From the NCBI RefSeq assembly GCF_007830355.1, contig NZ_VLKO01000006.1, positions 62,001 to 126,000 of the forward strand: 64,000 nt of DNA. The letters run 5' to 3'. The first letter of the stretch is position 1. Each line of letters opens with the position of its first letter. Position numbers and translations under genes: made by a program. The stretch is from Flavobacterium tiangeerense (lineage in GTDB: Bacteria; Bacteroidota; Bacteroidia; Flavobacteriales; Flavobacteriaceae). Of the stretch, positions 49,157 to 53,484 are shown piece after piece. The notes below the pieces were generated by a model. That model was not told the DNA's origin. It searched no databases and was given only the letters and a program-made list of their open reading frames with translations.

Positions 49157-49227
49157 TATAAAACACTGTTTGATGCACAAATGTAAAATAAATTTTAAAT
49201 TACAAATGCCAATTAGTGCGTGATTCT

Positions 49228-49235
49228 TACCTTTG
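49228..49235 (+). promoter_or_regulatory. -7 element of prmA
   Basis: TACCTTTG, exact consensus, 13 bases before the prmA ATG. No ideal -33 TTG. Confidence 0.5.
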
Positions 49236-49248
49236 CAAAAAAACTATC

Positions 49249-50085
49249 ATGTCAAACATATATATTGGATATCATTTTACAATAAGTCCAAAAGAAATCG
49301 GATCTGAAATATTAATAGCTGAATTAGGAGAAAAAGCATTTGAGAGCTTTACCGAAACTGAAAATGGAATTTCTGCTTTTGTTCAGAAGGATTTGTGGGA
49401 CGAAATGATTTTGGATGACATTCAAATATTGCAATCTGAGGAGTTTATAATTGATTACACTTTTGAAGAAATTGAGCAAGTAAACTGGAATGAAGAATGG
49501 GAAAAAAACTTTGATCCTATTGATGTCGATGGAAAATGCCACGTTCGAGCGCCTTTTCATCCAAAAACCGATGCAGAATATGATATCATTATAGAACCGA
49601 AAATGAGTTTTGGAACGGGTCACCATGAAACTACACACATGATGATTCAGCATTTATTAGAAATAGATGTTACCGGAATGAAAACACTTGACATGGGTTG
49701 TGGTACTGCCATTCTTGCCATTCTTGCCGAAATGAAAGGAGCTCAACCGATTGATGCTATTGATATAGACAACTGGTGTTATCTTAACTCAATAGAAAAT
49801 GCAGAACGCAATAATTGTACTCATATTACCGTTTATGAAGGTGAAGCTGCATTACTTGAAGGTAAAAATTACGATTTAATAATTGCAAATATCAACCGTA
49901 ACATTTTACTTAATGACATGAGTGCGTATGTAAAGAGTTTAAACACAAACGGAACCTTGCTCCTAAGCGGCTTTTATGAAGAAGACATCCCTTTTATTGA
50001 TGCTTCTTGTCAAGAAAACGGTTTGAAATATGTCAAAAAATTTCAAAGAAACAATTGGGTCTCTTTAAAATATGTAAATGAGTAG
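49249..50085 (+). CDS. prmA: Ribosomal protein L11 methyltransferase
   Basis: 278 residues from the ATG at 49249; the frame extends 11 codons upstream through the promoter. The N-terminal substrate domain has WNEEWEKNFDPI and the SAM part FGTGHHETTHMM, LDMGCGTAILAI and IANINRNILL. It trimethylates ribosomal protein L11. clpS follows after 42 bases. Confidence 0.95.
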   Translation: MSNIYIGYHFTISPKEIGSEILIAELGEKAFESFTETENGISAFVQKDLWDEMILDDIQILQSEEFIIDYTFEEIEQVNWNEEWEKNFDPIDVDGKCHVRAPFHPKTDAEYDIIIEPKMSFGTGHHETTHMMIQHLLEIDVTGMKTLDMGCGTAILAILAEMKGAQPIDAIDIDNWCYLNSIENAERNNCTHITVYEGEAALLEGKNYDLIIANINRNILLNDMSAYVKSLNTNGTLLLSGFYEEDIPFIDASCQENGLKYVKKFQRNNWVSLKYVNE

Positions 50086-50127: not shown

Positions 50128-50403
50128 ATGAGTATTAAAGAAAAAGTAAGAGAAAGAGTAAGTTTAAAAGAATTAATTAGTTTAGACAATGAAATAGTAG
50201 TTTACAACGATGATGTAAATACTTTTGAGCATGTAATTGAAACTTTAATCCGAGTTTGTAATCATACTCCCGAACAAGCAGAACAGTGTTCATTAATTGT
50301 ACATTATAATGGGAAATGTACCGTAAAAACGGGCTCATACGATAAATTAAAACCACAATGTACTCAATTATTAGAAGCTGGATTAAATGCGGAGATAATT
50401 TAA
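50128..50403 (+). CDS. clpS: ATP-dependent Clp protease adaptor ClpS
   Basis: 91 residues, the Bacteroidota short form. VVYNDDVNTFEHVIETLIRVC (about 24-44) is the N-degron-binding helix region, and the pocket residues Asn-Asp-Asp are intact; HYNGKCTVKTG follows. ClpS hands N-end-rule substrates to ClpAP. In this window no clpA is nearby. It probably shares the prmA transcript. Confidence 0.94.
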   Translation: MSIKEKVRERVSLKELISLDNEIVVYNDDVNTFEHVIETLIRVCNHTPEQAEQCSLIVHYNGKCTVKTGSYDKLKPQCTQLLEAGLNAEII

Positions 50404-50424: not shown

Positions 50425-50496
50425 TAAAATAAAACACTGTGAATAATTCATAAACATTCTCTTTTATTCTATATTTGAATAAAAAAAAGTGTTTAT

Positions 50497-51768
50497 ATGG
50501 AAGAATATGGTAAAATTTTAGTTTTTGTAATGCCTGTCTTTTTGATATTGATTATCATCGAGAAAGTTTATGGGCATTACAAAGGGGAAGACACTTCACC
50601 TAACATGGATTCTGTTTCAAGCGTAAGTTCTGGAATGATTAACTCCTTAAAAGATGTTTTGGGGCTTAGCATAACCCTAGTTTCATACGATTGGATTGTA
50701 TCTAAAATAGCTTTATTCAATCTTGAAGCTTCCATTTTAACCTATTTTATTGGATTTGTAGCTATTGATTTTTATGGCTATTGGAGCCATCGTTTGTCGC
50801 ATCAAATTAATTTTCTGTGGAACAAACATGCCATTCACCACAGTAGTGAGGAATTCAATTTGGCTTGTGCTCTACGCCAACCTGTTTCCAGTTTCGTCAA
50901 TTTGTTTACCTTTTTATTGATTCCTGCAGCACTTTTTGGAGTTCCCTCCAAAGTGATTGCAATTACCCTACCGATTCATTTATTTCTTCAATTTTGGTAC
51001 CATACTAAACACATTAAAAAAATTGGTTTTCTAGAAAATATACTGGTTTCTCCCTCCCATCATAGGGTTCATCATGCTATCAACCCCGAATATATGGACA
51101 AAAACCATTCACAAATATTCATCATTTGGGATAAATTGTTTGGTACTTTTCAAGCGGAATTAGAAAGTGTTCCACCTGTTTTTGGAATCACACGACCAGC
51201 TAGAACATGGAATCCAATACGGATTAATTTTCAGCATCTATGGTTACTCATTACCGATGCTTGGCGCGCCGAAAACTGGAAAGATAAGTTTACCATTTGG
51301 TTTAAACCAACTGGCTGGCGTCCAGAAAATTTTGAAGAAAAATATCCCGTAACAAAAATTACTAATGTCTATGATTTTGAAAAATACGGTGTTCAACATT
51401 CTAAAAAACTGATGTACTGGTCCCTTTTTCAAGCTATTATGACGTTGTTATTGATTAGTTATATGTATAATTCTATCGCAATAATAGGTTTGCCAAATGT
51501 ATTTATTTATGGAGCATTCATCTTCCTTACCGTTTACAGTTATACGGAACTTATGGACACGCATAAAGCTTCTGTGTTTTGGGAAGGTATCCGTTTTATA
51601 TTTGGAATTGGACTGATTTTCTATTTTGGAGATTGGTTCGGTATGGATCAACTCTTTCCTTTTGCGAGTTATATTATCGGCGGTTACCTGGTATTATCCT
51701 TAGCCGTAACGGTATATTTTGTCAGCATAAACTTTGAAAAAGAAACAATGATTGTAGCTCAATCTTAA
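50497..51768 (+). CDS. Membrane fatty-acid hydroxylase superfamily, AGMO-like (sterol desaturase family)
   Basis: 423 residues with several hydrophobic helices. The histidine boxes that bind di-iron are present: HRLSH (98-102), HAIHH (111-115) and HHRVHH (188-193), with further His161, His169 and His172. The spacing and SHRLSHQ / HAIHHSSEEFN sequence resemble alkylglycerol monooxygenase (AGMO, TMEM195), which cleaves ether bonds of alkylglycerols, more than sterol desaturases. The C-terminal 170 residues are hydrophobic with four more helices. A lysoplasmalogenase gene follows after 9 bases, supporting an ether-lipid substrate. Assignment to AGMO is inferred from motif resemblance. Confidence 0.85.
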   Translation: MEEYGKILVFVMPVFLILIIIEKVYGHYKGEDTSPNMDSVSSVSSGMINSLKDVLGLSITLVSYDWIVSKIALFNLEASILTYFIGFVAIDFYGYWSHRLSHQINFLWNKHAIHHSSEEFNLACALRQPVSSFVNLFTFLLIPAALFGVPSKVIAITLPIHLFLQFWYHTKHIKKIGFLENILVSPSHHRVHHAINPEYMDKNHSQIFIIWDKLFGTFQAELESVPPVFGITRPARTWNPIRINFQHLWLLITDAWRAENWKDKFTIWFKPTGWRPENFEEKYPVTKITNVYDFEKYGVQHSKKLMYWSLFQAIMTLLLISYMYNSIAIIGLPNVFIYGAFIFLTVYSYTELMDTHKASVFWEGIRFIFGIGLIFYFGDWFGMDQLFPFASYIIGGYLVLSLAVTVYFVSINFEKETMIVAQS

Positions 51769-51777
51769 AACGAAACA

Positions 51778-52449
51778 ATGAAAAGCACCATAATATTAAA
51801 AAGTTTCATTGGGTTTAGTCTAGTTTACCTTTTGATAATTCTTTTTGAAAAAGAAGAAATTGCCTGGTTTTTGAAACCGCTTTTATTGCCATTTCTAATT
51901 CTGGCTGTTTATATTAGTGAAAGATTTAGTACCAAAAATATTCTTTTAACAGCTTTAACTTTGTCGTGGATTGGTGATATAATTTTGATGTTTGCTGACA
52001 AAGGAGAATTGTATTTTATTGCAGGATTGATTGCCTTTTTACTTTCACACATTTCTTATATTATACTCTTTAGTAAACAATTAAGGATCTATATAAAGAA
52101 AAGTAAAATCATTTACTGGATAGGAGTTACAGCAATTGCCTTATATTTAATTGTAATGATGTTGATTTTGCTACCAAGTCTAGGAGACTTAAAAGCTCCT
52201 GTTTTTGTTTATGCACTAACAATTTCCATTATGTTGTTATTTGCTCTTAAAGGATTTTTAAACTGGCAAAAACCTGCCAGTATATATATTTTAATAGGCG
52301 CTATCATTTTTGTCGCTTCAGATAGTATTTTGGCCTTTGATAAATTCTATGCACCGTTAAAATGCAGTTCCTTCTTGATTATGGTAACTTATTTAATTGC
52401 ACAATATTTAATTGTTACTGGCATTTTGAAACTAAACAAAAAAAAGTAG
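51778..52449 (+). CDS. YhhN/TMEM86-family lysoplasmalogenase
   Basis: 223 residues with about eight helices. Family residues visible are Lys-Pro at 33-34 (FLKPLLLP), Gly-Asp at 66-67 (SWIGDIILMF), His91 and a late ASDSILAF. Human TMEM86 proteins and bacterial relatives hydrolyse the vinyl-ether bond of lysoplasmalogens. It starts 9 bases after the AGMO-like gene, so they share a transcript. The terminator overlaps its stop codon. Confidence 0.88.
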   Translation: MKSTIILKSFIGFSLVYLLIILFEKEEIAWFLKPLLLPFLILAVYISERFSTKNILLTALTLSWIGDIILMFADKGELYFIAGLIAFLLSHISYIILFSKQLRIYIKKSKIIYWIGVTAIALYLIVMMLILLPSLGDLKAPVFVYALTISIMLLFALKGFLNWQKPASIYILIGAIIFVASDSILAFDKFYAPLKCSSFLIMVTYLIAQYLIVTGILKLNKKK

Positions 52450-52476
52450 CATTTCCATAGGAAAATGCTACTTTGG
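52440..52476. terminator. Terminator between the lysoplasmalogenase and YeeE genes
   Basis: AAAGTAGCATTT (52443-52454) pairs perfectly with AAATGCTACTTT (52463-52474), loop 8. On the minus strand it is followed by a run of eight T, so it works best for the YeeE pair; the TAG of the lysoplasmalogenase lies in the left arm. Confidence 0.78.
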
Positions 52477-52493
52477 TATTAGATATTTTTCAA

Positions 52494-52910
52494 TTAATGA
52501 GGTAATTTATTTTTCAATAAACCATATAAAAAAGTTCCCAAAAGAGCCCCAAAAAGAACTATAAGAACGGTCCAAAAACCAGCACCAAGCAATATGAATA
52601 TAGGCCCTGGACAAGAACCTACTAATGCCCAACCCAAACCAAAAAACAATCCGCCAATCCAGTAGCGAGCAGATCCTTTTTCTTTATCGGGAATTTCTAT
52701 AGATTCTCCTTTGATGTCTTTGATATTATTTCTTTTTATGATTTGAATCCCAATAATTCCTGTCAATATAGCCACCGAAATAATTCCGTACATGTGAAAA
52801 GATTGAAACTGAAACATTTCATAAATTCTATACCAAGAAACAGCTTCGGATTTTGTTAAAACAATTCCGAAAATGAAACCAACCGCTAAAAATTTTATAC
52901 TATTTTTCAT
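52494..52910 (-). CDS. YeeE/YedE family transporter subunit (DUF6691 type)
   Basis: 138 residues with about four helices. The segment GWALVGSCPGPIFILLGAG carries the conserved Cys100 in SCPGP. It is the C-terminal half of the YeeE/TsuA architecture, which imports thiosulfate or other sulfur compounds through a row of cysteines. The N-terminal half is the gene just upstream (gap 13). This split form is common in Bacteroidota. Confidence 0.88.
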   Translation of the reverse strand: MKNSIKFLAVGFIFGIVLTKSEAVSWYRIYEMFQFQSFHMYGIISVAILTGIIGIQIIKRNNIKDIKGESIEIPDKEKGSARYWIGGLFFGLGWALVGSCPGPIFILLGAGFWTVLIVLFGALLGTFLYGLLKNKLPH

Positions 52911-52923
52911 TTATATATGAGAA

Positions 52924-53484
52924 TTAATTTAGGATTAAAGGAAGTAAAAAATGAGCCATAATAAGACCCCCAATAAAAAAACCGATAACCGCTTTTAAAG
53001 AAGGTAGTTGTAAATTACTCAAGCCTGAAATTGCATGTCCTGAGGTACATCCACCAGCATAACGGGAACCAAAACCAATCAAAATACCACCAATAAGCAG
53101 TATACAAATACTTTTTGGGGATTCTAAAATAGCTGTTCCAAAAAGTGCATCCGGCATTAATTTTCCGTTTGGAGCTTCAATACCTAGTTGTGCTAATTGT
53201 GCTATTGTTTTAGGATTAATGTCCACATTTGAAGCATCACTCATGAAATGAACGGCGACAAATCCACCTAACATAGCTCCAAGAACGACTACTAAATTCC
53301 AGCGTTGTGCTTTCCAATCAAAATCAAAAAACGATACTCGCTTGCCTAAACCTGCAATAGAACAAAGCGATCTTAAATTAGAAGACATTCCGAAAGACTT
53401 CCCAAAATAAATAAGTGCTAACATAATAAATCCTATCAGTAAACCAGAAACATACCAAGGCCATGTTTGAAAAACTATATCCAT
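52924..53484 (-). CDS. YeeE/YedE family transporter subunit
   Basis: 186 residues, about five helices. Conserved cysteines are Cys41 (LRSLCSIAG) and Cys146 in YAGGCTSGHAISG, with His150. Partner of the following DUF6691 gene; together they correspond to one YeeE channel. Family knowledge points to uptake of thiosulfate or related sulfur species; the substrate here is not shown by sequence. A consensus -7 box lies 22 bases upstream. Confidence 0.9.
   Translation of the reverse strand: MDIVFQTWPWYVSGLLIGFIMLALIYFGKSFGMSSNLRSLCSIAGLGKRVSFFDFDWKAQRWNLVVVLGAMLGGFVAVHFMSDASNVDINPKTIAQLAQLGIEAPNGKLMPDALFGTAILESPKSICILLIGGILIGFGSRYAGGCTSGHAISGLSNLQLPSLKAVIGFFIGGLIMAHFLLPLILN

Follow-up and report, generated by a model that had tools for sequence, protein, structure and literature searches.

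An AGMO-like membrane oxygenase gene recurrently paired with a YhhN-family gene in Flavobacterium and other bacteria

The gene pair and its flanks

The window, a stretch of 64,000 nucleotides from Flavobacterium tiangeerense, holds two genes for predicted membrane enzymes: an AGMO-like di-iron oxygenase of the FA_hydroxylase family and, directly behind it, a YhhN-family putative lysoplasmalogenase (Table 1). We confirmed from the open reading frames and the sequence the earlier note's claim that these genes lie here 9 bases apart, an operon-like spacing from which we infer that the two may be co-transcribed. Each family has a single match in the entire window genome, and the nearest named relative in a scan of named genomes was that of F. 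segetis (84% identity).

Table 1. Features at and around the gene pair, in window positions
Feature	Positions	Strand	Evidence
prmA, upstream of clpS	49216-50085		Pfam PrmA
clpS, upstream neighbour	50128-50403	+	Pfam ClpS, synteny
TATATTTG, candidate Bacteroidota -7 promoter element just 5' of the oxygenase ATG	50470-50477	+	Pattern match
AGMO-like di-iron membrane oxygenase gene (FA_hydroxylase family), 423 aa	50497-51768	+	ORF, Pfam
Gap of 9 bases, oxygenase stop to YhhN ATG	51769-51777	+	Sequence; operon-like spacing
YhhN-family putative lysoplasmalogenase gene, 223 aa	51778-52449	+	ORF, Pfam
14-pair hairpin between the gene pair and the convergent sulphur-transport genes	52443-52474	unstranded	T-run on minus strand

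The upstream genes prmA and clpS are kept in that position in Flavobacterium loci and form context outside the module. Downstream lie two convergent, short and adjoining genes (positions 52494-53484), each with a Pfam Sulf_transp match, which look like the halves of one YeeE/YedE-type sulphur transporter. The Bacteroidota -7 promoter element has the consensus TAnnTTTG. This pattern is abundant in the window (146 found versus 116 expected), and the candidate upstream of the oxygenase gene is hence weak; a scan for sigma-70 promoters was uninformative (13 found versus 10.8 expected). The "shared terminator" of the earlier note holds in part: the hairpin exists and overlaps the 3' end of the YhhN gene, but with the T-run on the minus strand it scores as terminating the convergent sulphur-transport genes instead.

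Functional residues of the two proteins

The oxygenase matches Pfam PF04116, FA_hydroxylase (E 6.4e-26; 91.8 bits, cut-off 31), its only Pfam match at E <= 5, and its AlphaFold model has a pLDDT of 93.6. Alkylglycerol monooxygenase (AGMO, TMEM195; EC 1.14.16.5) is the animal enzyme that cleaves ether lipids. We compared the two through the published human residue positions and their spacing, as given in excerpts of PMC3617469 and PMC7911779, which list nine histidines and six other residues as essential and a single glutamate as the cofactor contact. The window protein conserves 14 of these 16 positions. The histidine boxes are intact, as had been claimed: the eight-histidine motif and the ninth histidine (human H132, 136, 145, 148, 149, 201, 221, 224 and 225) are all present in AGMO spacing as window H98, 102, 111, 114, 115, 169, 189, 192 and 193. 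The essential residues Q162, D233, N235, W243 and D244 correspond to window Q128, D201, N203, W211 and D212. Spacing is exact from human 132 to 162 and from 201 to 244, with two extra residues between these segments.

The two exceptions are Glu137, the tetrahydrobiopterin contact, which is Gln103 in the window protein, and the essential Tyr236, which is His204. An excerpt of the 2013 AGMO review states that Glu137 is absent from every other superfamily member (PMC3617469). The C-terminal domain of AGMO (Pfam AGMP_C) gave no match in the window protein at E <= 5. Among relatives, 32 of the 51 members of alignment A2 match it weakly at that threshold (best 5.4e-5), and six of ten relatives scanned singly do so, every one under the 28.3-bit cut-off. 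Thus Q162, D233, N235 and the nine histidines bear out the AGMO features sought in this product, while Glu137 and Tyr236 are replaced and AGMP_C is undetected, and we call the predicted enzyme AGMO-like, not a demonstrated AGMO. The window genome carries Pterin_4a and Biopterin_H genes, so a pterin cofactor for the oxygenase is possible, as a prediction from genome content.

Positions 137 and 236 seem to co-vary in bacterial relatives of AGMO: Glu often occurs with Tyr, Gln with His, and Lys, His, Ser or Arg with Leu. The oxygenase of Algoriphagus boritolerans (L150, 6001-7245) has both Glu137 and Gln162 together with a complete D-N-Y-W-D pattern, and its relatives also have Glu137 and Tyr236. 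Judged by these residues, proteins of this type would make stronger candidates for an AGMO than the window protein does.

The YhhN protein matches Pfam PF07947 (E 1.6e-44, 152.3 bits against a cut-off of 25.6), again its sole Pfam match. Its AlphaFold model is all-helical, with a pLDDT of 94.2. Lysoplasmalogenases of the YhhN/TMEM86 family are classed as EC 3.3.2.2. Window residues K33, G66, D67, H91, G174, S181, D182 and Y205 correspond to K43, G81, D82, H104, G182, S189, D190 and Y213 of TMEM86A, which have been mutated in human TMEM86A/B; in the excerpted report, activity depends on seven of the eight, the first glycine being the exception (PMC11994398). All eight are present, which bears out the Lys, GD and His residues read from the sequence earlier, and between 88 and 92 of the 92 rows in an alignment that includes the window protein share each of them. 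These residues and the confident all-helical model suggest that the window YhhN is likely a lysoplasmalogenase by chemistry.

Searches of solved structures matched neither protein by sequence at E <= 1 and neither model by Foldseek at E <= 0.001. With VIA-align, the yeast hydroxylase Scs7p (4zr0_B) scored Z 5.8 (rmsd 5.8, 177 residues aligned), level with unrelated membrane proteins. We read this model-based match as compatible with the oxygenase assignment, not as evidence for it.

Recurrence of the pair across genomes

We searched 247 genomes of the window's phylum and found an AGMO-like match (E <= 1e-20) in 66 and YhhN in 48. Within Flavobacterium, 10 of the 15 sampled genomes have an orthologue of the oxygenase (65-100% identity), and YhhN lies directly behind it in all ten. 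Among the best 80 of 592 stretches from a collection of named genomes, nine of the ten loci titled Flavobacterium have the pairing, L130 being the exception; none of the remaining 70 is paired, some of these loci ending at contig ends. Outside the genus, the close orthologues of the phylum sample (49-59% identity) have no adjacent YhhN in 15 of 15 cases, and 12 of these 15 have YhhN elsewhere in the genome. Within the genus, one genome keeps prmA-clpS-YhhN without the oxygenase (G170, locus L080) and one locus, from a UBA6135 MAG, keeps the oxygenase without YhhN (L130), so the two genes can separate. In G210 they are adjacent in reversed order.

A second oxygenase subfamily, about 36% identical to the window protein, is also paired with YhhN in two further orders. 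In the order of genome G080 (260 genomes), all 67 orthologues (63-100% identity to G080) are followed on the same strand by YhhN as the next gene, whereas among the matches listed it adjoins 0 of 83 paralogues; 121 of the 260 genomes have YhhN. The order of G045, covered by 199 genomes, has 29 orthologues (47-100% identity); 22 of them, spread over four families, are paired, and in-frame stops lie within three of the 22 paired matches (G526, G508 and G535). Genome G646 has YhhN paired with a distant oxygenase, 33% identical to the query. With the ATG closest to the end of the oxygenase gene taken as the YhhN start, the gap from oxygenase stop to YhhN falls between -26 and +17 bases in each of the 67 loci measured. 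In family f3, YhhN starts before the oxygenase stop in 51 of 53 loci (two genomes counted twice).

The neighbourhood search proposed in the earlier note for the most part favoured conservation beyond the genus: the pair occurs in two further orders, in G646 and, reversed, in G210, but beside none of the close non-Flavobacterium orthologues. That close orthologues are paired only in Flavobacterium would fit chance synteny retained by common descent within the genus. We find this scarcely credible, as it is contradicted by the subfamily paired in two orders, by the distant G646 and the reversed G210, by co-occurrence of the genes without adjacency, and by the phylogeny. On an oxygenase tree of 177 rows (L095, L337 and L338 excluded), adjacency must have changed at least six times, or seven with the reversed G210, and a YhhN tree of 51 rows requires four changes; long branches and numerous weak forks mark both trees, and gain and loss are indistinguishable on them.

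Elsewhere, other genes stand beside the oxygenase. In eight loci (L064, L065, L067, L142, L149, L150, L164 and L194), the oxygenase is followed by XdhC-like and MobA-like genes, not YhhN; five are titled Algoriphagus, L067 and L150 are probably one genome, and the Pfam assignments were made on one example of each gene. AGMO-like genes lie 0-1 gene from a menaquinone cluster in five genomes of family f23 (L082, L084, L085, L087 and L088), and in G118, of another family, one adjoins menC with menA nearby (L101); the menaquinone genes are named by NCBIfam in L088 and L101 and by sequence clustering only in the other four loci. Such neighbours would suit an oxygenase that modifies a polyprenyl or quinone lipid, with YhhN a separate housekeeping gene. 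We regard this as very improbable for the pair, as the link is absent from the window and confined to oxygenase loci without an adjacent YhhN, and the genes stand on opposite strands in L084 and L101.

Co-occurrence points the same way as adjacency. Genomes with an oxygenase of the Gln162 type, a dividing mark picked after the sequences were inspected, have YhhN in 38 of 50 cases, versus 10 of the 197 other genomes in the phylum sample. The misses are therefore 12 of 50 Gln162-type genomes without YhhN and 10 of 48 YhhN genomes without this oxygenase type. Sixteen genomes have AGMO-like proteins that all lack Gln162, and YhhN occurs in one of them, G170. (L289 and L290 were excluded from this typing, G410 lying outside the phylum sample and L290 being a stray stretch of G084.) Counted by genome in the window's class, 33 have both, 5 the oxygenase only, 3 YhhN only and 20 neither. 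By genus the counts are 21, 9, 5 and 86 in the phylum (p 3.5e-12) and 18, 4, 2 and 11 in the class (p 0.0002), p values that are overstated since genera are not fully independent. The repeated adjacency of the two genes in several distinct bacterial lineages supports a functional link between the oxygenase and YhhN well, and the two probably act together on lipids.

Possible joint function and comparison with known enzymes

The joint function that had been suggested for the pair, oxidative cleavage of alkyl ethers combined with hydrolysis of vinyl ethers, is possible, and the earlier interpretation has partial support. In our preferred reading, to which we give a probability of about 0.42, the two membrane enzymes would dispose of foreign sn-1 ether-linked lysolipids, both yielding fatty aldehyde. 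Such lysolipids would be taken up from animals, protists or plasmalogen-making bacteria. The AGMO-like di-iron oxygenase would hydroxylate the carbon adjoining the ether oxygen of alkyl lysolipids, and the resulting hemiacetal would break down to fatty aldehyde and the glycerol head group. YhhN would hydrate the vinyl ether of alkenyl lysolipids to the same kinds of product. The pair would in this way cover both ether types, the aldehyde being passed on to oxidation.

A foreign origin of the substrate has a precedent in one plasmalogen-free bacterial species, whose YhhN cleaves lysoplasmalogen and protects spheroplasts against it; excerpts of that report call the presence of the enzyme curious and propose a foreign substrate (PMC9052158). 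The ether reading is weakened by the replacement of Glu137 and Tyr236 and the undetected AGMP_C in the oxygenase, by the unpaired close orthologues outside the genus and the unmatched genomes in the co-occurrence counts, and by relatives whose described substrates are not ethers (ornithine lipid for OlsE, and prodigiosin). Neither gene of the unit encodes an aldehyde dehydrogenase or a phospholipase, as judged by open reading frames and Pfam, which also counts against it.

The main rival to ether-lysolipid clearing is hydroxylation of an endogenous, non-ether membrane lipid (ornithine, lysine, glycine lipid or similar) by the oxygenase, with YhhN handling the lyso-lipid of the same remodelling pathway. 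The replaced AGMO residues would suit such a substrate, and every one of the 51 proteins in alignment A2 matches the model of the ornithine lipid hydroxylase OlsE. Hydroxylated lipids of this kind also occur in the phylum: according to excerpts of PMC4484230, Flavobacterium johnsoniae makes ornithine lipids whose fatty acids carry hydroxyl groups, and Pseudopedobacter saltans has hydroxylated ornithine and lysine lipids, whose hydroxylation the excerpts assign to no pathway. The window oxygenase itself scores 60.1 bits against the OlsE model (2.2e-16), well below the 475-bit cut-off of this NCBIfam equivalog, and we rejected its identification as OlsE. The excerpts of PMC4484230 further report that BLAST found no OlsC, OlsD or OlsE homologues in Pedobacter or P. 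saltans. On the YhhN side, every residue tested in lysoplasmalogenases is retained, and the bacterial YhhN assayed in the excerpted work was inactive on ester lysolipids (PMC9052158). We consider this rival doubtful.

We also asked where a vinyl-ether substrate could come from. CarF/PEDS1 (PF10520) is the aerobic desaturase that makes vinyl ethers, and it works on the alkyl-ether carbon adjoining the oxygen. Only 2 of the 247 genomes match PF10520 at E <= 0.001 and 1 of 247 exceeds the cut-off, and a search of the window genome gave no match. The positive control was G158, of the same phylum (4.4e-31); its desaturase at L333 (G158:C38:401839-402303) is the sole CarF/PEDS1-type protein above the cut-off, and G158 also has YhhN and an AGMO-like gene. 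The rarity of CarF makes it unlikely that the YhhN substrates are made by this route; the substrate is probably foreign or produced by the partner oxygenase.

The second of these sources corresponds to a sequential route, in which the oxygenase, with His and Gln in place of Tyr236 and Glu137, would desaturate an alkyl lysolipid to a vinyl ether that YhhN then hydrolyses to aldehyde, the lysoplasmalogen being a mere intermediate in CarF-free bacteria. We know of no description of such a two-step pathway of ether cleavage. It would account for a vinyl-ether hydrolase recurring beside an alkyl-ether-type oxygenase in CarF-free genomes, and the AGMO-essential Tyr236 is His in 67 of 67 YhhN-following copies among 208 open reading frames, a set that has some genomes twice, G080 and G138 included (two counted twice among the 67). 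In the order of G045, His236 occurs in 22 of 22 paired loci, but also in 7 of 8 non-adjacent ones, the eighth having Tyr. It likewise occurs in 18 of 140 unpaired copies, two of which (L127 and L165) lie at contig ends, where pairing is indeterminate, and the paired G646 and the reversed G210 have Leu236 and Tyr236. The first oxygenase tree was cut from 208 to 130 rows by removing near-identical rows, six truncated loci and open reading frames shorter than 270 aa. It gave three phylogenetically independent pairs for His236 versus YhhN, and the 177-row tree gave five; none was opposite in direction, but the pairs were too few and the test was not significant. We judge the sequential route unlikely.

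The same exceptions, the unpaired His236 copies and the non-significant phylogenetic test led us to reject His236 as a signature of YhhN-linked oxygenases; by Fisher's test at genome level, its association with YhhN presence in Gln162-type genomes has p = 0.007 if the window genus is included and p = 0.08 if it is left out. Glu137 was rejected as a discriminator because paired copies differ at position 137 (E, Q, G, R or T in the order of G045, K in G646).

Among the matches listed from open-access literature there was no report of the recurrent oxygenase-YhhN pair, which is weak evidence of absence as subscription papers lie mostly outside this scope. As far as can be told, the combination is new, and each enzyme comes from a known family or superfamily. 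For the puzzle of why a plasmalogen-free bacterium should have a lysoplasmalogenase, the recurrent pair provides a specific partner enzyme and a pathway open to testing. It also supplies bacterial relatives of AGMO, which an excerpt of the 2013 review describes as labile and unpurified (PMC3617469). Should the oxygenase not act on ethers, the pair would nonetheless indicate an unassigned oxygenase of membrane lipids in a phylum where hydroxylated amino lipids occur.

Among known systems, the plasmanylethanolamine desaturase CarF/PEDS1 belongs to a different family; PF10520 (Lipid_desat) is unmatched in the oxygenase at E <= 5 and, as noted, in the window genome. OlsE shares the superfamily, and oxygenase residues 50-231 match its model; the C-terminal part of the window protein is longer (423 aa against a 293-position model). 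The prodigiosin cyclase PRUB680 is likewise bacterial and called AGMO-like, a likeness drawn from its description in an excerpted review (PMC7822155), in which its substrate is a tripyrrole pigment. With AGMO itself (445 aa), the window protein has in common the FA_hydroxylase core, the nine histidines, the five essential residues from Q162 to D244 and a similar length; it differs in being bacterial and YhhN-paired, in Gln at 137 and His at 236, and in the undetected AGMP_C. The second protein shares with YhhN/TMEM86 lysoplasmalogenases a Pfam match above the cut-off, the eight functional residues and an all-helical model, and what sets the window copy apart is that it is encoded directly behind an oxygenase, with a predicted activity.
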